Assembly (NCBI GenBank): GCA_005862285.1
Contig: SZXW01000002.1
Location: forward strand, 1-64,000
DNA length: 64,000 nt
Direction of reading: 5' to 3'
DNA from: Chlorobium sp.
GTDB taxonomy: Bacteria > Bacteroidota > Chlorobiia > Chlorobiales > Chlorobiaceae
Part shown: in pieces, positions 8,792 through 47,031 of the stretch
Position numbering within the stretch: position 1 is the stretch's first letter
How the letters are laid out: each line of letters starts with the position of its first letter
The notes under the pieces: model-generated
The model's input: only the letters and a program-made list of their open reading frames with translations
Told to the model about the DNA's origin: nothing
Database searches by the model: none
Position numbers and translations under genes: made by a program

Positions 8792-8817
8792 TGCAGTGAA
8801 AAGTTAATGTTAAAAAT

Positions 8818-9012
8818 TTATGCAAGAATCATCCGCTTGATCTGTTTGGCTTTCGAGCCTTCAAGCAGAGTTGACTGGTGCAGACGGCGTGAACGTTTCC
8901 TGTTCTTTTTCTCAAGGTTATGTGAACCGTTCATCCGTTCGCGTTTGATCTTTCCAGATGCGGTTGCCTTGAAACGTTTTCTGGCACCGCGGTGTGATTT
9001 CATTTTAGGCAT
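8818..9012 (-). CDS. rpmI: 50S ribosomal protein L35
   Basis: 64-residue, highly basic L35 with the conserved MPKMKSHRGARKRFKATASG start and the C-terminal LEGSKAKQIKRMI. It sits between infC and rplT, 42 nt after infC, as in most bacteria. Confidence 0.95.
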   Translation of the reverse strand: MPKMKSHRGARKRFKATASGKIKRERMNGSHNLEKKNRKRSRRLHQSTLLEGSKAKQIKRMILA

Positions 9013-9054
9013 GATCGTCCTTTATGATATTTTGGTAATAAACTGAAACGGTAT

Positions 9055-9684
9055 TTACTCTTTAACTTCTTTGACTTCCTTTACTTCGGCTGGCGGAGCA
9101 ACGGGAGCGGCTGTCTTGGCCCTGATGCGGTCATAGGCATCGATTTTTTTCTTGTCAGGCTCGAAATAGACGAAAAGTTTCTTGCCCTCGAACTTCGGGT
9201 CGCCATCGCGGTTCCCGACAACGCTGAGGCGTTCCGTGAGGCGTTCGGCGAGTTCGAGCCCTTTATCCTTGTAGATGATCGAACGTCCGAGAAAGACGAT
9301 GGTTGCACGAACACGGTTTCCCTTGCGGAGGAACTCCTCCAGATGGGCCGTCTTGAAATCGAAGTCATGCTTGTCGGTGTTGGGATGGAACCGCAACTCC
9401 TTGAGAGTGGTCGTTTTCTGCTTCTTTTTCAGGTCCTTTTCCCTCTTGTCCATTTTATAGAGCAGCTTGCCGAGATTGTCGAACTTGCAGACCGGTGGCT
9501 GGGCGTTGGGCTGCACTTCGATCAGGTCCTGGTTTCTGTCTTCCGCAATCCGTCTCGCATCTATGGTTTTCATGACTTGCTGCGTGCCGTCCGGAAAAAT
9601 GATTCTCACTTCCGGAACACGAATCTGTTCATTGACCCTGTAGGTGAGTTTCGATTTTTGATCCGTACCCTTTTGTTTCTTCAT
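9055..9684 (-). CDS. infC: Translation initiation factor IF-3
   Basis: 209-residue IF-3, which keeps 30S subunits free and checks initiator-tRNA pairing. The N domain ([20 protein letters not shown], then [17 protein letters not shown]) is joined by a Lys-rich linker helix to the C domain ([30 protein letters not shown]). The start is ATG, not the unusual AUU known from enterobacteria. The C-terminus is extended beyond the normal end by an Ala/Pro stretch and a triple VKE repeat, encoded by near-identical codons that may slip. It lies 23 nt downstream of thrS. Confidence 0.95.
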
Positions 9685-9707
9685 GCGTCAAGGTTTGTTT
9701 TAGGTAG

Positions 9708-11726
9708 TCAGGTTCTTCCGGTTATTTCTTTCTGCAATTGTTCTATCATTCCATTCAAGCTGAAACGGCCGGCGTCACCGATACGATGGCGTCGAAGGGA
9801 AACTTCTCCGTTTTCCTGTTCTTTCTGTCCGACAACGATCATACATGGTATTTTGCCGACTTCGGCGTCCCTTATTTTTTTGCCCACTTTTTCACTCCTG
9901 ATGTCGATTTCCGTGCGGATTCCCGCTGCCAGCATCGCCTGGTGAACGGATTTAGCATAGTCGTGAATATCTTCAGCGATAGGCAGGACAATTGCCTGTA
10001 CCGGTGCGAGCCAGAGGGGGAAATTGCCGGCGGTATGCTCGATGAGCACGCCGATAAAACGCTCCATGGAACCGAACGGTGCCCTGTGGATCACAACCGG
10101 ACGGTGTTTCTGTCCGTCGCTGCCGACATAGGAAAGGTCGAAACGCTCGGGCATGACATAGTCTACCTGGACCGTGCCGAGCTGCCATTTCCTGTCGAGC
10201 GCATCACGAACGATAAAATCGATTTTCGGACCGTAAAAACTCGCTTCGCCGATGCCTATGAAATAGTCGATTCCCATACGGTCAGCAGCTTCCTTCACAT
10301 CTTTTTCGGCCTGTTCCCACACTTCCGGTGTTCCGCCATACTTGGCCTGGTTTGCAGGGTCATGCATGGACAGTCTTGTCTGGACACTGGAAAATCCGAG
10401 TGTCGAGAAGACATATTGTGTAAGGTCTATGGCGTTGCAGATCTCATCGACAAGCTGGTCGGGACGGCAGTAGATATGCGAGTCATCCTGCGTGAACCCT
10501 CGAGCGCGCACAAGGCCGTTCAGTTCTCCTGACTGCTCATGGCGGTATACGGTTCCGAATTCCGTCAGCCTTATCGGCAGGTCGCGGTAACTGCGGATCC
10601 TATTGCTGTATATGAGATGGTGATGCGGGCAGTTCATCGGTTTCAGAAGGTACTGCTCCTGAGAGCCATCCTCATCGTGGTAGGTAAGCGGAGGAAACTG
10701 CGAATCGCTGTAATACGGATAGTGCCCAGAACGTTTGTAGAGTTCTATATTGCCGATATGCGGAGTGTAAACCGGCAGGTAACCCCGTTTGCGCTGCTCT
10801 TCCTTCAGGAAGGATTCGAGCTCGTTGCGGATGATGGCGCCTTTCGGCAGCCATATCGGCAGACCGCTTCCCACTTCCGGGGTGAGCATGAACAGTTCGA
10901 GTTCCGCACCGAGTTTCCGGTGGTCCCTGCGTTTTGCCTCTTCTATTCTGGCTGCATACTCCTTCAGCAGTTTCTCGGACGGGAAAGCGATGCCGTAAAT
11001 GCGCTGCATGTTTTCCCTCGATGAATCGCCGCGCCAGAATGACGAGGAGATATTGGTGAGAAGCACCGCTTTCAGTTTCGATGTGGAAGTCAGATGCGGT
11101 CCGATGCAGAGGTCGGTGAATTTGTCCTGATGGTATAGAGAGACGGTATCGACCTGTTTCAGAGTGTCTTCGAGGATTTCAACCTTGTAAGGGTCCTGTC
11201 GGACGGTAGAGAAAAATTCTATCGCTGCATCTCTCGGCATTTCCTCCCTTGTGATCGTGATATCCCGTCTGCCAATTTCAAGCATTCTTTCTTCTATCTG
11301 GCGAAGATCGGGTTCCCTGAACCGGTGCGGGGAAGCGATATCATAATAGAATCCCTGATCGATGGCCGGACCGGCGCCGAATCTGCTTCCGGGAAAAAGC
11401 TCCTCTACAGCCTGTGCCATGATATGGCTCGCGCTGTGCCAGAACACATTTTTCCCTTCAGGGGAATCAAAAGTCAGTATCTCTATTGCAGCATCGGCAG
11501 TCAAAGGCATGCCGAGATCGACTGCTTTTCCGTCGACTTTCAGCGCGAGGGCATCCTGTGCAAGTTTGCGTCCGATTGAGAGTGCGATATCGAGTCCTGT
11601 GCTTCCTGACGGGAAAGACCTGATTGTCCCGTCGGGCAGGGTAATGGCTATCATAGCCGGATTTTCCTGATGGTCAGACATTTCGTTATTCTGTCGTTTC
11701 ACATTCTGCGAATCATGGTTTTTCAC
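9708..11726 (-). CDS. thrS: Threonyl-tRNA synthetase
   Basis: 672-residue class II synthetase charging tRNA-Thr. Domain order: TGS (residues ~25-85), the editing domain with the HSASHIMAQAVEELFP motif, the catalytic core (PMNCPHHHLIYSNRIRSYRD with the zinc-binding Cys/His set, motif 2 FGTVYRHEQSGELNGLVRAR, motif 3 VIHRAPFGSMERFIGVLIE) and the anticodon-binding domain. Three Met starts are possible (11726, 11681, 11654); MIAITLPDGT at 11654 matches the usual TGS beginning, so the first 24 residues are uncertain. The 135 nt upstream, up to bchZ, hold no T-box that I can recognise. Confidence 0.95.
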   Translation of the reverse strand: MKNHDSQNVKRQNNEMSDHQENPAMIAITLPDGTIRSFPSGSTGLDIALSIGRKLAQDALALKVDGKAVDLGMPLTADAAIEILTFDSPEGKNVFWHSASHIMAQAVEELFPGSRFGAGPAIDQGFYYDIASPHRFREPDLRQIEERMLEIGRRDITITREEMPRDAAIEFFSTVRQDPYKVEILEDTLKQVDTVSLYHQDKFTDLCIGPHLTSTSKLKAVLLTNISSSFWRGDSSRENMQRIYGIAFPSEKLLKEYAARIEEAKRRDHRKLGAELELFMLTPEVGSGLPIWLPKGAIIRNELESFLKEEQRKRGYLPVYTPHIGNIELYKRSGHYPYYSDSQFPPLTYHDEDGSQEQYLLKPMNCPHHHLIYSNRIRSYRDLPIRLTEFGTVYRHEQSGELNGLVRARGFTQDDSHIYCRPDQLVDEICNAIDLTQYVFSTLGFSSVQTRLSMHDPANQAKYGGTPEVWEQAEKDVKEAADRMGIDYFIGIGEASFYGPKIDFIVRDALDRKWQLGTVQVDYVMPERFDLSYVGSDGQKHRPVVIHRAPFGSMERFIGVLIEHTAGNFPLWLAPVQAIVLPIAEDIHDYAKSVHQAMLAAGIRTEIDIRSEKVGKKIRDAEVGKIPCMIVVGQKEQENGEVSLRRHRIGDAGRFSLNGMIEQLQKEITGRT

Positions 11727-39218: not shown

Positions 39219-39441
39219 CGTTTCATTTCATTTATAGTGTTTGAAAGAGAGCTCGGCAGTTACCTTGATGTTCTATCACCTGCCGGGCCGCATTCAATAT
39301 CATAGACGTCAAAGGTTTGAAAAACTTGTAGTTACATCGGGAAATATTTCATGTTGAATTGCAATGAACTGCCAGGGCGAAGAGGTGGTTTCTTCTCATA
39401 AGCGCTTGATAATATGGCTCAGACTGAAAAACGGACAAACC

Positions 39442-41985
39442 ATGAAAGCAGCTGAAATGAAGGAAAACCCGGATATAATTTTCTGGGATCTTTCACCGGA
39501 AAACGCCTTTGCGAGGGTTGGGAGCACATTAGAGGGCCTGACAGAAAAAGCATCATGTGAGCGTTTGAAAGATCAGGGGGCGAATACGCTGAAAGGAAAG
39601 GAGAAAACCTCTTCATTCATGCTTTTTCTCCTCCAGTTCAAAAGCCCGATAACGATGCTGCTTGTTGCCGCTTCGCTGCTTTCGTTCGCACTCAATGACA
39701 GAACCGATGCGACGATCATCCTTTTTATCGTGCTTGTCAGCGCTCTGCTCGGCTGGTGGCAGGAAAAAGGAGCCGCCAATGCGATCGAGCAGCTGATGAA
39801 AATGGTGCAGATCAACTGCAGGGTAATCCGGGACGGCGAGGAACGGAATGTCCATGTTGAAGACATCGTGAGCGGGGATGTTGTTCTGCTTGCAGCGGGA
39901 GATCTGATCCCCGGTGACAGCCTGATTCTCGAGTCAAAAGAGCTGTTTGTCGATGAAGCGGTTTTTACCGGTGAAACGTTTCCGGTCGAAAAAAACACAG
40001 GAGTTCTTCCCGGGAATACTCCGCTTGCGAAACGCAGCAATACTCTCTTTATGGGATCGCACGTCATCAGCGGCAAGGCGAAAGCTCTTGTAATGAGAAC
40101 GGCAAGGCAGTCAGAATTTGGAAAGATATCTGAAAGCCTGAGGCTCCGTGCGCCCGAAACCGATTTCGAGAAAGGAGTGCGCCGGTTCGGGTATATGCTG
40201 ATGGAAATTACCCTGCTGCTCATGATCGTGATTTTTGCTGTCAATGTTTTCCTGCAAAAGCCGATACTCGATTCATTCCTGTTTTCTCTTGCCCTCGCTG
40301 TCGGGTTGACACCTCAGCTTCTTCCTGCAATCATTACGGTCAATCTTGCATCCGGCGCCAGGAGAATGGCCGGGAAGCAGGTTATTGTCAAACGCCTCTC
40401 CTCCATAGAGAATTTCGGAAGCATGAACATTCTCTGTTCGGACAAGACCGGCACCATTACCGAAGGAAAAGTAAAACTGCATTCGGCATGTTCAGTCTCC
40501 GGCAAATTATCGGTGAAGGTGCTGGAGTATGCCTGGCTCAATGCAAGCATGCAGCAGGGTTTCCGAAACCCGATTGACGATGCGATTATCGAAAACCTTC
40601 CCGGTCACCAGAGTTCTTACGTGATCCAGAGCGAAGTCCCTTATGATTTTATCCGGAAACGTCTTTCTGTGCAGTTGCGCAATGCGGAAGACAATATCGT
40701 TATTACCAAAGGAGCTTTGAAAAATGTGCTCGATGTCTGCACTCTCGTTGAAACAGAGGAAGGAGAAACGGTACAGGTCGGCGAACAGAGGTCACAGATA
40801 CTGGATGAGTATTCCAGGCTCAGCAACGATGGATTGCGTACGCTTGGTATCGCTTATAAAAAAGTTGGTGACCGGGAGAATTTTACCCGTGCTGATGAAC
40901 ACGATATGGTTTTTCTGGGTTTTATCATCTTTTTTGATCCGCCGAAGCAGCATGCCGCCGAAACAATAAGGAACCTGGGAAAACTCGGGGTGGAGTTGAA
41001 AATCATAACCGGCGACAATGCGCTGGTGGCGGAAAACCTCGGACGTCAGATCGGTCTCGACAAACCGGTTGTGCTTTCCGGTGCCGATATGCACCATATG
41101 AACGATGCTGCTCTGATCCAGCAGGCCGGACTCACCGATATTTTTGCCGAGGTTGAACCAAACCAGAAGGAAAGGATCATCCTTGCCCTGAAAAAAGCGG
41201 GGAATGTCGTGGGTTTCATAGGTGACGGCATCAATGACGCATCGGCGCTCCATATTGCGGACGTCGGCATTTCGGTCGATTCAGCGGTCGATGTCGCCAA
41301 GGAAGCGGCCGAGATCATTCTGCTCAATCACGATCTCAAGGTGCTTCTCGACGGCATTGCCGAAGGACGGAAAACCTTTGCCAACACCATGAAATATGTC
41401 TTCATGGCTACGAGCTCCAATTTCGGCAACATGTTCAGCATGGCGGGGGCATCGCTTTTCCTGCCATTCCTGCCATTGCTTCCCAAGCAGATCCTGCTTA
41501 CCAACCTTCTGACCGATTTTCCCGAAACCACGATATCGAGCGATCGCGTCGATGCGGTCAACATCGAGATGCCACACCGCTGGAATATCCATTTCATCAG
41601 GCGTTACATGGTCACTTTCGGCATTCTCAGTTCGGTTTTCGATTATCTCACTTTTGCGGCACTGCTCTTCATCCTGCATGCCGGAGAAAAGGAGTTTCAG
41701 ACGGGCTGGTTTGTCGAGTCCGTTATCTCGGCTTCGATGATCGTGCTGGTTATCCGTACACGCCTTCCGTTCTTCAAAAGCCTGCCCGGCAGATATCTGA
41801 GCATTGCCACGATGCTTGTGGTACTTGCAGTTCTGCTGTTGCCGAATTCACCGTTGGGGCCGATGTTCGGGTTCACACGCCTGCCTGCCGTATTTTACGG
41901 TCTGATGCTTCTGTTTGTTGTTCTTTACATCATATCAGCCGAGTTTACCAAGCGGTTTTTCTACCGCCTGATGTCACCGGATTGA
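39442..41985 (+). CDS. mgtA: MgtA-type P-type ATPase (P3B, Mg2+ import likely)
   Basis: 847-residue P-type ATPase. Actuator loop FTGETFPVEK (176-179), phosphorylation site CSDKTGTITEG with Asp334, nucleotide region VITKGALKNVLDVC and hinge GFIGDGINDASALHIADVGI. The membrane motif VGLTPQLLPAIITVNLA in M4 and the M5-M6 block SNFGNMFSMAGASLFLPFLP resemble MgtA/MgtB, which import Mg2+ from the periplasm. TGET and DKTGTIT are mild variants of TGES and DKTGTLT. Start uncertain: ATG 39364 is in frame, but the added 26 residues look non-conserved. A Mg2+ role fits the Mg2+-sensor gene 3 kb downstream, yet substrate is inferred. Confidence 0.85.
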   Translation: MKAAEMKENPDIIFWDLSPENAFARVGSTLEGLTEKASCERLKDQGANTLKGKEKTSSFMLFLLQFKSPITMLLVAASLLSFALNDRTDATIILFIVLVSALLGWWQEKGAANAIEQLMKMVQINCRVIRDGEERNVHVEDIVSGDVVLLAAGDLIPGDSLILESKELFVDEAVFTGETFPVEKNTGVLPGNTPLAKRSNTLFMGSHVISGKAKALVMRTARQSEFGKISESLRLRAPETDFEKGVRRFGYMLMEITLLLMIVIFAVNVFLQKPILDSFLFSLALAVGLTPQLLPAIITVNLASGARRMAGKQVIVKRLSSIENFGSMNILCSDKTGTITEGKVKLHSACSVSGKLSVKVLEYAWLNASMQQGFRNPIDDAIIENLPGHQSSYVIQSEVPYDFIRKRLSVQLRNAEDNIVITKGALKNVLDVCTLVETEEGETVQVGEQRSQILDEYSRLSNDGLRTLGIAYKKVGDRENFTRADEHDMVFLGFIIFFDPPKQHAAETIRNLGKLGVELKIITGDNALVAENLGRQIGLDKPVVLSGADMHHMNDAALIQQAGLTDIFAEVEPNQKERIILALKKAGNVVGFIGDGINDASALHIADVGISVDSAVDVAKEAAEIILLNHDLKVLLDGIAEGRKTFANTMKYVFMATSSNFGNMFSMAGASLFLPFLPLLPKQILLTNLLTDFPETTISSDRVDAVNIEMPHRWNIHFIRRYMVTFGILSSVFDYLTFAALLFILHAGEKEFQTGWFVESVISASMIVLVIRTRLPFFKSLPGRYLSIATMLVVLAVLLLPNSPLGPMFGFTRLPAVFYGLMLLFVVLYIISAEFTKRFFYRLMSPD

Positions 41986-42629: not shown

Positions 42630-43099
42630 AATCGGGTTGATTTATTTATCAGTGACCTGAATCGTTTCTGAATCGATGTTGCCGGATGAACGTCATATTT
42701 CATCTTTTAACAGAAGATAGACAGGAATGTCATGGTATGAAATACGTGTTGGCGAAAAGGTTGAGCGAGCCTTTTGCCAGTTATGGATCCCTCATCGGTC
42801 ACACTTGTCGACGTTCGCCCCGGAGAGTGAGAGTGCGGTGCCGTTTCCGGATTTTTATCGATCATATGAGAAGTTAAATCCTTTATTCTTTTTTACGGTA
42901 AATGCTTTGTAAAAGCGATCCTTAATGGTAAATTTGCAGCGGATTGGCAGGTCAAGCCAGACAGGCTGTGTTCATTACCAGTGATAACGGAAATCACCAT
43001 AATCAGTTATTGATTTTCGCAGCTGCACTGACGCCGCTACCGGTCTTTTCCGCAAAACGTTCTGTTCCGGGCTTTGTCAACGTCTAATGCAACACGGAT
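42630..43099. other. Divergent intergenic region, one doubtful short frame
   Basis: About 470 nt between the YecD-like gene and the Nramp-related gene. A 61-codon plus-strand frame at 42727-42912 (starting MSWYEIRVGEKVERAFCQLW) has ordinary composition but no recognised family, and its ATG directly abuts an AGGA, which is too close for a ribosome-binding site. Probably holds the promoters of both flanking genes; a Mg2+-responsive leader is possible but I see no M-box-like fold. Confidence 0.4.
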
Positions 43100-44368
43100 A
43101 TGGATTTTTTTTCCGTCATATACTACCGGATTAAAAAAATCTGGAAAGCAATCAGGCTTTACCTGGTAATTGCCGGACCGGGGCTTGTCGTGATGATCGC
43201 AGACAATGATGCCGGTGGAATTACCACCTATGCCGCAACCGGTGCAAAATACGGTTATCACCTGATTTGGTTTCTTCTTCTGCTTATTCCAGTTGCATAC
43301 TATGTCCAGGAGATGACTGTCAGGCTTGGAGCAGTAACCAAGCGGGGTCATGCCGAGGCTATTTTTGAAAGTTTCGGGGCTTTCTGGGGCTGGTTTTCCC
43401 TGCTCGATCTCATGATTGTCGACTGGCTGACGCTGGTTACGGAATTTGTCGGCATGACCGCAGCATTGAACATTTTCGGTGTTCCTTCCTGGCTGACCGT
43501 TGTGCTTGTCATCGTGCTCATGGGAATCATCATGCTGAACGGCCGCTACTGGACTTGGGAAAAAATCGCGCTTGGATTCTGCCTTCTCAACCTGATTTAT
43601 GTTCCTGCGGCGTTCATGGTCAACCCTTCGATTTCCGATATCATCCATCAGGGACTGATACCCAACCTTCCAGGGGGACTTACCAACGAACTGTTTTTTC
43701 TGCTCATGGCCAATATCGGCACCACCATAGCTCCGTGGATGCTGTTTTTCCAGCAGAGCTCGGTTGTCGACAAGGGATTGCTCGAAAAAGATATCAAGAT
43801 GGGCAAAATCGATACCTTTATCGGCTCGATCATCACGGTTGCCATTGCGGTTTTCATCGTGATCGTGACGGGGACCCTCCTGAACGGTTCACCTATCGAT
43901 GACGCTGCAACGGCTGCGAAGATGCTCATGAGTATAAACCATTATACGGGAGCGTTTCTTGCAATCGGGCTGTTCGATGCAGGACTTCTCGGGGCGATCT
44001 GCATATCGCTTGCAAGTTCCTGGGCTTTCGGCGAGATTTTCGGCTGGGCGCATTCGCTCAATACCAAGGTGAAGGAAGCCCCCTGGTTTTACATATCGTT
44101 TTTCTTTACACTCGCTACAGCAGGGGTCGTTCCCCTCATTCCGGGAGCACCGCTTGTCATCATTACGCTTTTTGTCCAGGTCATCGCGGTAACCCTGCTT
44201 CCGGCGGCACTGGTATTTCTCATCCTGCTCCTGAACGACAGGAAGACAATGGGGGAATATGCCAATACCCGGACGCAGAATATTGTCAGTACGGTGATCG
44301 TTGTTGCCATCATCATTCTTTCGACGATGTACGGCATCAGCGCACTTTTTCCAAATCTTTTCCAGTAG
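43100..44368 (+). CDS. Nramp-related divalent cation transporter with altered metal site
   Basis: 422-residue multi-helix SLC11/Nramp-family carrier. Alignment of the GPG-x8-DPGN element gives DAGG (37-40) within IADNDAGGITTYAATGA, so the Pro and Asn of DPGN are gone. In helix 6 the usual IGATVMPH is IGTTIAPW (206-213): the Met that selects Mn2+/Fe2+ is Ala211 and the His is Trp213. Loss of that Met is a mark of Nramp-related Mg2+ transporters. With an MgtE_N/CBS gene downstream, Mg2+ transport is the favoured inference, not shown. It heads a three-gene unit; the next gene begins 16 nt later behind a strong GGAGGT. Confidence 0.82.
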   Translation: MDFFSVIYYRIKKIWKAIRLYLVIAGPGLVVMIADNDAGGITTYAATGAKYGYHLIWFLLLLIPVAYYVQEMTVRLGAVTKRGHAEAIFESFGAFWGWFSLLDLMIVDWLTLVTEFVGMTAALNIFGVPSWLTVVLVIVLMGIIMLNGRYWTWEKIALGFCLLNLIYVPAAFMVNPSISDIIHQGLIPNLPGGLTNELFFLLMANIGTTIAPWMLFFQQSSVVDKGLLEKDIKMGKIDTFIGSIITVAIAVFIVIVTGTLLNGSPIDDAATAAKMLMSINHYTGAFLAIGLFDAGLLGAICISLASSWAFGEIFGWAHSLNTKVKEAPWFYISFFFTLATAGVVPLIPGAPLVIITLFVQVIAVTLLPAALVFLILLLNDRKTMGEYANTRTQNIVSTVIVVAIIILSTMYGISALFPNLFQ

Positions 44369-44384
44369 GCGGAGGTAAGACAGC

Positions 44385-44561
44385 ATGAGGATGTTCAGGC
44401 AGTTTGTCGGCAAGATCCGCGAGATCAACAGCAAGTATGCGAACCCGAAAGTGGTGATGTCCCGAAGTGTCAGCATTTCATTGGCGGCACTCAGGATTTA
44501 CCTGTTCCTGCTGGTGATATTGATGCTGTACAAATTAATGACGGTAATCAAGGTATTCTAA
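44385..44561 (+). CDS. 58-residue membrane protein between transporter and Mg2+ sensor
   Basis: A 58-codon frame from ATG 44385 to TAA 44561, preceded by GGAGGT (44372-44377) at ideal spacing, the strongest ribosome-binding site of the unit. The first 27 residues are basic and polar (MRMFRQFVGKIREINSKYAN); one hydrophobic helix follows (LRIYLFLLVILMLYKL), ending in MTVIKVF. The inside-positive charge predicts a cytoplasmic N-terminus. No family recognised. Its place suggests a small accessory subunit or regulator of the Nramp-related transporter, comparable in size to known small membrane regulators such as MgtS, without claiming homology. Confidence 0.78.
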   Translation: MRMFRQFVGKIREINSKYANPKVVMSRSVSISLAALRIYLFLLVILMLYKLMTVIKVF

Positions 44562-44572
44562 ACGGGGGCGTT

Positions 44573-45823
44573 ATGGTTACGGTTCTGGAACATGAATTTT
44601 TTCTCACTGAAATCATCGGGCGCAGGGTTTACCTGAAATCACAATCGATCGGTAAACTGAAGGATATCGTCATTCAGGAGATTCCCGGAAAAATTCCTGA
44701 AGTTACCCACTTGCTGGTTCACCGTCCCTATGGCGACAGTGCACTTCTTATTCCCTGGGATAAAACCGCGATGATTTCCAACACCGAGATTGTCGCCGAT
44801 ATCGAGAATATCGCCGGTTTTGAGCTGAACCCGCTCGAAAGCCATATTTTTCTCAAAGACTATATCCTCGACAAGAAAATCCTCGATATGGACGGTCATG
44901 AAGTAGAGGTTGTCTATGATGTGAAGCTGATGTTCCAGAACGACCGGCTCTTTGTCAGTGAGGTGGATTTCAACCGTTTCCGCATTCTCAGGCGCATGGG
45001 ATTCAAAAAGCTTGCAAGCTACCTTGCCCGGTACAAGGAGGAATCCAGCATATCATGGCTCTATGTCCAGCCGCTGCCGGAAACAATCAGCAGTTTCAAG
45101 GGGAACGTCAGGCTCAATGTGTTGAAAGAAAACATTAACGATATCCATCCGGTCGATCTTGCCGATATTCTCGAAGAACTGGACGGTAATCAGCGAATGG
45201 CGCTTTTTAACGAACTCGAACCCGAGCTCGCTTCGGACACACTGGAAGAGGTCGAGCCAAGGGTCCAGCGCGAGCTGATCAGATCGATGGAAAAAGAAAA
45301 GGCCGCTGAACTGATCAATGAAATGAGCCCGGCCCAGGCGGCTGAAATCCTTTCTGTGCTTCCGGCTTCGGAAGCGGACGAGATCATCGAATATGTGGAT
45401 ATCGAAAGCAAGGAAAGGGTCCAGCAGATCATCGAGCATAACGATGAAAATATCATGCTCTATGCCACACAGAACGTTATCAGAAGGCCCGGCAGCACAC
45501 TGGCGAAGGATGTTATCGATAACTACCGGGAAATAGCTGCCGACATGGATGTCATCATGTATGTCTATGTTACGGACCCGGACAATGTGCTTCAGGGGGT
45601 TGTCGACATCCGGGAACTGATTTCAGCGGATAAAACGCAAACCCTCGGCGATATCATGACGGACAGCCTTATAACCCTGAATCCTGACGAATCGCTCCAC
45701 GATGCGGTCGACATGTTTACCCGCTATTCGTTCAGGGCCATTCCAGTCACGGACGACAACGAACATCTGCTCGGAGTCGTTTCCTTCCATGACATCAAAG
45801 GCGTCAAGCCGAGACTTGATTGA
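44573..45823 (+). CDS. Soluble PRC-barrel/MgtE_N/CBS protein, likely Mg2+ sensor
   Basis: 416 residues without membrane helices. Domains: an N-terminal PRC-barrel-like part (GRRVYLKSQSIGKLKDIVIQ, again DKKILDMDGHEVEVVYDVKL, residues ~15-165), an MgtE N-domain of superhelical repeats (HPVDLADILEELDGNQRMAL to SEADEIIEYVDIE, ~195-285) and a CBS pair (~290-416, TLGDIMTDSLITLNPDESLH and FRAIPVTDDNEHLLGVVSFH). These are the cytosolic Mg2+-sensing parts of MgtE, but the MgtE transmembrane channel is absent. It starts 11 nt after the small membrane protein gene, behind GGGGG. A regulatory partner of the Nramp-related carrier is the natural inference. Confidence 0.85.
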   Translation: MVTVLEHEFFLTEIIGRRVYLKSQSIGKLKDIVIQEIPGKIPEVTHLLVHRPYGDSALLIPWDKTAMISNTEIVADIENIAGFELNPLESHIFLKDYILDKKILDMDGHEVEVVYDVKLMFQNDRLFVSEVDFNRFRILRRMGFKKLASYLARYKEESSISWLYVQPLPETISSFKGNVRLNVLKENINDIHPVDLADILEELDGNQRMALFNELEPELASDTLEEVEPRVQRELIRSMEKEKAAELINEMSPAQAAEILSVLPASEADEIIEYVDIESKERVQQIIEHNDENIMLYATQNVIRRPGSTLAKDVIDNYREIAADMDVIMYVYVTDPDNVLQGVVDIRELISADKTQTLGDIMTDSLITLNPDESLHDAVDMFTRYSFRAIPVTDDNEHLLGVVSFHDIKGVKPRLD

Positions 45824-45893: not shown

Positions 45894-46229
45894 TTATTTG
45901 CTCTGTCCAACCATGTAAGCGACTGCATCGCCTACCTGCTGGTCGGTGAGTTTCGGGTTGCCGCCTTTTGCGGGCATCATCCCTTTTTTACCCTGGAATC
46001 CTTTGATAGATTTGCTGACAAGTGTCGGCATGCCCTGAGCGATACGGGGAGCCCAGTCAGCCTTGTCGCCAAGTTTCGGTGCACCCATCATGCCGGTTTT
46101 GTGGCATGTGGCACAGTTTGAATCATAGACAGTTTTGCCTGCGGCAGCGTTGTAGGCAGCCATCGCATTTGAAGAGCCCATTGAACAGAGGAAGAGTGCA
46201 CAGACGGCACCTGATACAAAACGAGACAT
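45894..46229 (-). CDS. cycA: Cytochrome c-555-type monohaem cytochrome (soluble)
   Basis: 111-residue periplasmic class I cytochrome c. A signal peptide ends at NAMA (residue ~24). The haem site is CATCH in VYDSNCATCHKTGMMGAPKL, and the axial Met is in KKGMMPAKGG. Length and sequence match the small c-555 electron carrier of green sulfur bacteria, which feeds electrons from sulfur oxidation to the reaction centre. The symbol is by recall of the Chlorobaculum gene. A lipoprotein version lies 370 nt upstream. Confidence 0.88.
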   Translation of the reverse strand: MSRFVSGAVCALFLCSMGSSNAMAAYNAAAGKTVYDSNCATCHKTGMMGAPKLGDKADWAPRIAQGMPTLVSKSIKGFQGKKGMMPAKGGNPKLTDQQVGDAVAYMVGQSK

Positions 46230-46599: not shown

Positions 46600-47031
46600 T
46601 TACTTCGATTTGTCGACCATGTAAGCTGTTGCATTGATGACCTGTTCGTCGGTCAGCGACGCATTGCCGCCCTTGGCCGGCATCATGCCGCCTTTTCCGG
46701 TGAAACCTTTTAGGGCGTTGTTGTTCATCGCATCCGCGCCTTTGGCGATGCGGTCAGCCCATGCAGCCTTGTCGCCCGGTTTCGGTGCGCCCATCATGCC
46801 TGCATCGTGGCAGCCGGCACAGCTGGCATCATACACGGTTTTGCCTGCGGCAAGTTTCGGGTCTGCAGGTGCTTCGGCGGCCGGAGCAGGAGCTGCAGGA
46901 GCTGCAACCGGAGCCGGGGCAGCTTTTTTCTCTTCAGGGAACTTCAGGCTGGCAGGAGGCTTTTCGAGGCCGCATGCACCGAGGAATAAAAGACTTACCG
47001 TTACAAACGGCAGGACGGGCTTCATGGTCAT
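46600..47031 (-). CDS. Cytochrome c-555-like lipoprotein (membrane-tethered)
   Basis: 143-residue monohaem cytochrome with a lipobox (LLFLGACGLEKPP, Cys ~20), then a flexible Ala/Pro linker of about 40 residues (APVAAPAAPAPAAEAPADP) and a c-555 domain: CAGCH in VYDASCAGCHDAGMMGAPKP and axial Met in GKGGMMPAKGG. It looks like the soluble cytochrome turned into a tethered carrier, which may shuttle electrons between membrane complexes without diffusing. The pair probably arose by duplication and are separated by the repeat. I recall an equivalent pair in Chlorobaculum tepidum. Confidence 0.88.
   Translation of the reverse strand: MTMKPVLPFVTVSLLFLGACGLEKPPASLKFPEEKKAAPAPVAAPAAPAPAAEAPADPKLAAGKTVYDASCAGCHDAGMMGAPKPGDKAAWADRIAKGADAMNNNALKGFTGKGGMMPAKGGNASLTDEQVINATAYMVDKSK

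Follow-up and report, generated by a model that had tools for sequence, protein, structure and literature searches.

A tiny single-helix protein accompanies an NRMT-type carrier and a detached MgtE-type sensor in a putative magnesium uptake cassette of Chlorobium

The described systems that come closest to the three-gene cassette considered here, which lies in a 64,000-nucleotide stretch of a Chlorobium sp. contig (SZXW01000002.1, positions 1 to 64,000; hereafter the window) and encodes an Nramp-related carrier, a tiny membrane protein and an MgtE-like sensor, are the NrmT/NRMT transporters of Clostridium acetobutylicum (CA_C0685, CA_C3329) and Eggerthella lenta (EleNRMT). These share with it the carrier fold, a DxxG/TxxA metal site, a threonine required for Mg2+, M-box control in relatives and an adjacent MgtE-like gene. 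However, EleNRMT-type carriers lack both the tiny protein and one aspartate of the carrier, Asp103, and where the sensor gene is visible it precedes the carrier. The cytosolic domain of MgtE (Thermus thermophilus, TtMgtE; PDB 2yvy, 2oux) has in common with the sensor its MgtE_N and CBS architecture and fold, the acidic positions of Mg6, Mg7 and part of Mg4, and the residues of the ATP site, whereas the sensor stands alone as a soluble protein, carries a PRC-barrel in addition, has neither plug helix nor channel, and has lost D91 and the Mg5 pair. For the tiny protein the parallels are of description, not sequence. MgtS of E. coli is likewise a very small protein with a single transmembrane (TM) helix dedicated to a Mg2+ importer, MgtA (PMC10925321), yet that importer belongs to another transporter class, and the tiny helix is conserved across phyla, its gene accompanying that of the carrier or, in some cases, forming part of it. 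KdpF in KdpFABC and AcrZ on AcrB, which PMC10925321 and PMC7267776 describe as small TM proteins stabilising or tuning a larger transporter, differ in that they serve unrelated transporters.

We propose, with a probability of roughly 0.7, that the locus is a three-part Mg2+ uptake system, in which the tiny protein would be a subunit of the carrier and the sensor its regulator. Carriers and sensors of these kinds have been described, as has their pairing; the tiny protein, of which an earlier reading of this DNA made from its letters alone (hereafter the sequence-only reading) had made little, is the most novel part of the locus. The family libraries and PubMed Central literature searched, a scope outside which most subscription journals and other preprints fall, seem to hold no description of such a partner, a single helix conserved in one branch of NRMTs, with fused forms and a candidate contact.

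A single-helix protein that accompanies one branch of carriers

The three open reading frames (ORFs) are laid out as the sequence-only reading had them, tightly spaced on the + strand with gaps of 16 and then 11 nucleotides, and a GGAGG Shine-Dalgarno-like sequence precedes the tiny gene. With a ratio of nonsynonymous to synonymous polymorphism (pN/pS) of 0.16-0.35 within the genus and a frame conserved across phyla, the tiny ORF is a real gene; its product gives no match above cut-off in Pfam or NCBIfam and none in PHROGs. One TM helix is predicted, with the N-terminus inside and a net charge of +6 before the helix and +1 after it, and the basic N-terminal segment (KIREIN.KY..P) is conserved.

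A scan of contigs for relatives of the carrier gave, as the best 80 (54-93% identity), proteins from Chlorobiota, Pseudomonadota, Nitrospirota, Acidobacteriota, Chloroflexota, Bacteroidota, Desulfo-type bacteria, Elusimicrobiota, several candidate phyla, and methanogenic and other archaea, sampled mostly from bog, lake, peat, groundwater and mine drainage according to the record titles. A tblastn search with a single tiny sequence found a homologue beside 75 of these 80, and the remainder were recovered by inspection and with a profile. When all loci with a carrier at least 50% identical are counted (n = 123), a tiny homologue accompanies the carrier in every one, always on its strand, and the sensor gene is adjacent in 122, the remaining contig stopping before the sensor position; the linkage of all three genes is conserved, as the proposal of the sequence-only reading requires. 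The order is carrier-tiny-sensor in 118 loci and carrier-sensor-tiny in four, while one contig ends early; loci without a carrier at least 50% identical yielded no match to the tiny profile (E 1e-4). This profile was trained on sequences from 93 of the 123 loci, so that the independent cases are the remainder, among them all four carrier-sensor-tiny loci. Moreover, since the loci are the best relatives of one query, include many near-copies and draw on some genus genomes present in both sets, they do not represent 123 independent events, and the weight of the linkage rests on the spread over phyla and the rearranged gene order. In the tiny protein, Leu36, Arg37 and Tyr39 do not vary among the standalone homologues (93/93).

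Plasmid-borne NRMTs of Burkholderia, Paraburkholderia, Caballeronia, Methylobacterium, Rhodococcus, Mycolicibacterium, Streptomyces, Pseudarthrobacter, Leifsonia and Alicyclobacillus carry about 90 extra C-terminal residues, in which a helix of low conservation is followed by a basic linker with WRMPPL and then by a final helix containing S/TxxxKxxxxxLRxYLxxxxxLxxxK, the tiny core; the LR-x-Y core occurs in all of these fused tails. In a search space of 20, the tiny profile picks up all thirteen tails (12 distinct) at E values up to 0.006 and none of the carrier bodies; each match is short and, taken singly, weak (19 bits at best). Comparison of the fused tails with the tiny protein by hhalign gives a probability of 93% (E 2.6e-7), and against 26,000 composition-keeping shuffles the four best tails exceed all and most lie beyond about the 99.9th percentile, though two of the 13 are unexceptional, near the 99th. 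Because the 11-TM carrier should end outside and the tiny-like N-terminus should be cytosolic, by predicted topology, the extra tail helix would be needed before the tiny-like one. Acidithiobacillus and Acidiphilium plasmids encode a separate, divergent tiny protein (WGLRLYI) after the carrier, with no adjacent sensor gene.

In a tree of the carriers (73 rows, built by a quick method with support from the Shimodaira-Hasegawa-like approximate likelihood ratio test, SH-aLRT, only; the program warned of long branches), every carrier that has a tiny helix, be it separate, divergent or fused, falls into a single branch (SH-aLRT 100), within which the fused carriers make up one branch of their own (SH-aLRT 100). 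EleNRMT-type carriers, with no tiny gene or tail and mostly with the sensor gene first, fall outside, as do canonical Nramps. Asp103 of the carrier is present in 54/54 members of the tiny-associated branch, in 0/7 EleNRMT-type proteins and in 0/12 canonical and other Nramps, and is the only acidic column conserved in the branch yet different in EleNRMT-type proteins. It lies nine residues into a helix predicted at 94-124 in the AlphaFold model, which by Nramp topology should be the cytosolic half of that helix, where Arg37 of the tiny protein is also expected. From this conservation on both sides we infer a candidate contact between Arg37 and Asp103.

In the three-part system as we picture it, the carrier would, like EleNRMT, admit hydrated Mg2+, and probably also Mn2+, down the electrochemical gradient. 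The 58-residue protein would be its dedicated single-helix subunit, with the basic N-terminal segment on the cytosolic face and the helix packed on the carrier, probably near TM3, such that Arg37 faces Asp103, and the PRC-MgtE_N-CBS sensor would, by analogy with MgtE, read cytosolic Mg2+ and ATP and close or slow the carrier at high Mg2+. A bolder version, in which one NRMT branch forms an obligate complex whose single-helix subunit docks on TM3 via an intramembrane Arg37-Asp103 pair and couples the detached Mg2+/ATP sensor, the helix having arisen once and been fused to (or split from) the carrier in a sub-branch, seems to us possible but doubtful.

Other roles can be envisaged for the tiny protein. 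It may regulate the stability or degradation of the carrier without binding it permanently, much as the 31-residue membrane protein MgtS of E. coli binds and stabilises MgtA (PMC10925321), and such a role would likewise give strict linkage. Fusion to the carrier across a whole sub-branch makes a transient role less likely, however, and strict linkage to one carrier branch together with the invariant arginine suggests a fixed partner; we consider a regulator of this kind unlikely. Alternatively, the tiny protein may chiefly anchor the soluble sensor to the membrane. The position of its gene between carrier and sensor in 118 of the 122 complete loci would suit an anchor, as would the predicted cytosolic orientation of its basic segment, yet a tiny or fused helix also follows carriers that have no adjacent sensor (L115, L118, L116, L120), and EleNRMT-type carriers have a sensor gene without any tiny protein, so that a mainly anchoring function strikes us as quite improbable.

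Carrier, probable substrate and sensor

The carrier is an NRMT and not an MntH. It matches Pfam Nramp (E 1.1e-76), and in comparisons that took in a single structurally characterised NRMT its best PDB match by sequence is EleNRMT (7qia; 232 bits, 37% identity), against 66 bits for the best MntH. The AlphaFold model (predicted local distance difference test, pLDDT, 81.5), which has a predicted 11-TM LeuT-like fold, likewise finds EleNRMT first (E 5e-20, TM-score 0.83/0.87), ahead of DraNramp (3.5e-14), and the tree places the carrier with NRMTs, far from canonical MntH, in keeping with the Nramp-related Mg2+ carrier of the sequence-only reading. DAGG at residues 37-40 and IAPW at 210-213, both correctly identified in that reading, stand in place of the canonical Nramp/MntH signature, DPGN (TM1) and MPH (TM6); DAGG and TTIAPW are identical in EleNRMT, the site residues D37, G40, T208 and Q360 correspond to its D55, G58, T224 and Q379, and the NRMT signature DxxG - TxxA/T is present as D37..G40 and T208..A211. 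Across the branch D37 is conserved in 54/54 carriers and G40 in 46/54, or in 40/40 of those with a separate tiny gene. A canonical MntH with DPGN/MPH (L154) is encoded separately in the same genome, as is a third Nramp-related protein (L153; G000:C7:233000-240500) with the motifs DDDPSG/TTISPY. At L153 the latter has an MgtA-like P-type ATPase as its neighbour; elsewhere in the Chlorobium genus (G007:C29, G015:C3, G027:C79) a carrier with these motifs lies within a few kilobases of CorA.

Magnesium is the probable substrate. T208 is invariant (54/54 branch carriers), and since the exchange T224A in EleNRMT leaves Mn2+ transport in place and abolishes detectable Mg2+ transport (PMC8806188), it is a stronger marker of Mg2+ than the loss of the helix-6 methionine noted in the sequence-only reading. 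Additionally, among 62 branch loci scanned, M-box aptamers (112-147 bits, gathering 44) precede the cassette by a few hundred bases in five (L069, L074, L085, L091, L099), whose carriers are 67-75% identical to that of the window; seven further plasmid NRMT loci also have an M-box, and no riboswitch for Mn2+, Ni/Co, czcD or other metals was found in the loci scanned. Together with T208, the M-boxes of these relatives lend weight to the Mg2+ substrate proposed in the sequence-only reading. MgtC-family genes adjoin plasmid NRMTs in Acidiphilium, Mycolicibacterium and Leifsonia. Within the genus, CorA is present in 9/20 cassette-bearing and 15/17 cassette-free genomes (Fisher p = 0.014; p = 0.0016 when G017, with a cassette truncated at contig ends, is counted as bearing; p 0.004 for genomes at least 90% complete with G017 as bearing), although these statistics ignore genome kinship. 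The window's genome keeps only a CorA remnant, the last 42 codons (G000:C1, L155:2435-2310), 62% identical to an intact relative and with GMN kept.

The third gene combines PRC, MgtE_N and CBS parts (Pfam 2.9e-6, 1.4e-23 and 5.2e-16), and Pfam finds in it no MgtE membrane channel domain (PF01769), just as the sequence-only reading described; a full MgtE is encoded elsewhere in the genome, at C9, and MgtE is near universal in the genus. The best PDB match of the sensor, by sequence and by fold, is the cytosolic domain of TtMgtE, and a PRC-barrel also occurs in EleNRMT-type and actinobacterial sensors. With the Mg2+- and ATP-site assignments of TtMgtE taken from PMC5882242 and PMC5529423, the positions E59 (Mg7), D95 (Mg6) and D247 (Mg4) are acidic in 51/53 sensors, and of the ATP-site positions Y170 is kept in 53/53, F227 in 48/53, D188 as D/E in 47 and R187 as R/K in 45; the plug-helix sites Mg2 and Mg3 are impossible because the protein ends before the plug helix. 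The retained N/CBS Mg2+ sites and ATP site suit a Mg2+/ATP sensor, short of proof, and most acidic residues of the former being kept is consistent with the sequence-only view of MgtE_N and CBS as Mg2+-sensing parts. The further proposal that a sensor was recruited to gate an unrelated carrier is not new, given that Shin et al. (2014) reported a homologue of the cytosolic domain of MgtE beside most NrmT genes and suggested regulation by feedback (PMC4072509).

Several results weigh against a three-part Mg2+ system, in addition to the weakness of individual tail matches and the neglect of kinship in the CorA contrast. The sensors lack the Mg4-site D91, the plug helix and, for the most part, the Mg5 pair (D226, D250). 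The Asp103-Arg37 pattern is a correlation of one branch against its sister groups rather than a measured contact. No M-box or other known RNA for the cassette was found in the window, although an M-box is not required for the NRMT family, which includes published members without one (PMC4072509). EleNRMT also transports Mn2+, with a Michaelis constant (Km) of about 120 uM (PMC8806188), and the NrmT of Acidobacterium capsulatum, which lies beside an MgtE-like gene, mainly rescued Mn2+, not Mg2+, uptake in Bacillus subtilis, its co-expressed MgtE-like partner giving no better Mg2+ rescue (PMC4072509). Because that partner brought no improvement, gating of the carrier by the sensor is something that we infer. 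The transport results would fit a carrier that mainly imports Mn2+ or another transition metal, with an MgtE-like protein that senses this metal or has some other role. Against such a carrier stand the M-boxes directly upstream of five close relatives, where no Mn2+ riboswitch occurs, the invariance of the Mg2+-specific T208 and the presence of a separate canonical MntH in the genome, and we think it improbable.

Distribution, mobility and neighbouring genes

The cassette was undetected in 17 of the 37 Chlorobium-genus genomes sampled and is common in non-phototrophs; consequently, the argument of the sequence-only reading from the magnesium demand of bacteriochlorophyll is weak. The genes flanking the cassette vary even among Chlorobiaceae, the Chlorobiota carriers nest among those of Pseudomonadota on the tree (94 and 95), and the full cassette, with a carrier 78% identical, sits amid metal-resistance genes on IncHI plasmids, which are conjugative, from Citrobacter freundii and Serratia marcescens. 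Horizontal transfer of the cassette into Chlorobiaceae is likely on these comparisons, which include sequences derived from metagenome-assembled genomes (MAGs), where binning errors are possible. A tblastn search of plasmids with the tiny protein gave no match, despite the full cassette on two of them, because the sequence is short and divergent; the profile found it, and the PLSDB gene table leaves the tiny gene unannotated on the Citrobacter and Serratia plasmids. One Chlorobium-genus genome holds two complete, different cassettes (L156, G003:C8; L157, G003:C7).

On the Citrobacter and Serratia plasmids, genes for an ArsR/SmtB regulator and a heavy-metal ATPase adjoin the cassette, distant NRMTs occur near CDF, CadR or DmeF genes, and CorA is often missing where the cassette is present, a pattern that might be expected of a metal-tolerance module, namely an importer that would let in Mg2+, keep out Co2+, Ni2+ or Cd2+ and take the place of the leakier CorA. 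However, no such neighbours occur in the window or at most chromosomal loci, and metal-resistance genes were rejected as a general context, since they hold on some plasmids and not at most chromosomal loci. We give a tolerance module little credence; as an ecological role it would be compatible with three-part Mg2+ uptake.

Coordinates of the cassette and its surroundings are collected in Table 1. The ATPase upstream is genuinely MgtA-type, as the sequence-only reading stated (TIGR01524 at 768 bits, cut-off 611), but its linkage, offered there as support, is not conserved, and MgtA was rejected as a fourth conserved member given that P-type ATPases lie near only a few other cassettes. A promoter-like box, TTTG-N19-TAAATTTG, is kept upstream of Chlorobiaceae cassettes in differing contexts and resembles the Bacteroidota-type promoter consensus. 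A conserved leader RNA before these cassettes was considered and rejected, since apart from the box and a short run of bases at the start codon the sequence varies; a Chlorobi-specific S6-S18 leader is present in the window. Downstream of the cassette, on the - strand, lie two tandem, similar genes for small c-type cytochromes (CxxCH; window 45894-46229 and 46600-47031). OprB-family porins are the commonest immediate neighbour of the cassette (8/110), which suggests an outer-membrane part of Mg2+ uptake; in L069, a Geobacteraceae MAG, a second M-box (8793-8960) stands directly before such a porin gene (9046-10512) adjoining the cassette. In three Nitrospirae MAGs (L068, L070, L071) selA, for selenocysteine synthase, follows the sensor gene.

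Table 1 Features of the cassette, its surroundings and its plasmid counterparts (positions are those of the window unless an accession is given)
Feature	Coordinates	Strand	Evidence or context
NRMT-type carrier (SLC11/Nramp-related), 422 aa	43100..44368	+	Pfam Nramp, PDB match, AlphaFold model, tree
TM1 metal-site motif D37-A-G-G40 (DxxG)	43208..43219	+	D37/G40 = EleNRMT D55/G58
Carrier Asp103 in TM3	43406..43408	+	Sole acidic carrier residue specific to the tiny-associated branch
TM6 metal-site motif T208-T-I-A211-P-W213 (TxxA)	43721..43738	+	T208 = EleNRMT T224
Tiny single-TM protein, 58 aa	44385..44561	+	Homologue in 123/123 loci, fused forms, TM prediction
Tiny protein Arg37, within the invariant L-R-x-Y core	44493..44495	+	Conservation across standalone homologues
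Detached MgtE-type sensor, 416 aa: PRC-barrel, MgtE_N and CBS pair, soluble	44573..45823	+	Pfam; TtMgtE cytosolic domain match
Sensor PRC-barrel, residues 6-63	44588..44761	+	Pfam PF05239
Sensor MgtE_N, residues 191-291	45143..45445	+	Pfam PF03448
Sensor CBS pair, residues about 292-410	45446..45802	+	Pfam CBS; TtMgtE site positions largely conserved
Promoter-like box TTTG-N19-TAAATTTG ahead of the operon	42906..42936	+	Conserved before Chlorobiaceae cassettes
MgtA-type Mg2+ P-type ATPase, neighbour outside the conserved cassette	39364..41985	+	TIGR01524
Citrobacter freundii plasmid cassette	NZ_LR881935.1 131219-144484 (L111)		Beside ArsR/SmtB regulator and heavy-metal P-type ATPase
Serratia marcescens plasmid cassette	CP068396.1 278284-291549 (L112)		Beside ArsR/SmtB regulator and heavy-metal P-type ATPase

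Implications for NRMT biology

What the MgtE-like partner does for NRMTs, a recent class of Mg2+ importers, has been a question since 2014. The cassette offers a small and cheap test system for the way in which a soluble sensor of MgtE type might act on an unrelated carrier, Arg37 and Asp103 constitute a concrete prediction that can be mutated, and the tiny gene is an example of a gene that annotation can miss. The branch with the tiny component spans a range from Chlorobium to methanogens and the conjugative plasmids of enterobacteria, and if the tiny protein is an added component of these importers, functional tests of the carrier alone, or of the carrier with its sensor, may in this branch have lacked a part.

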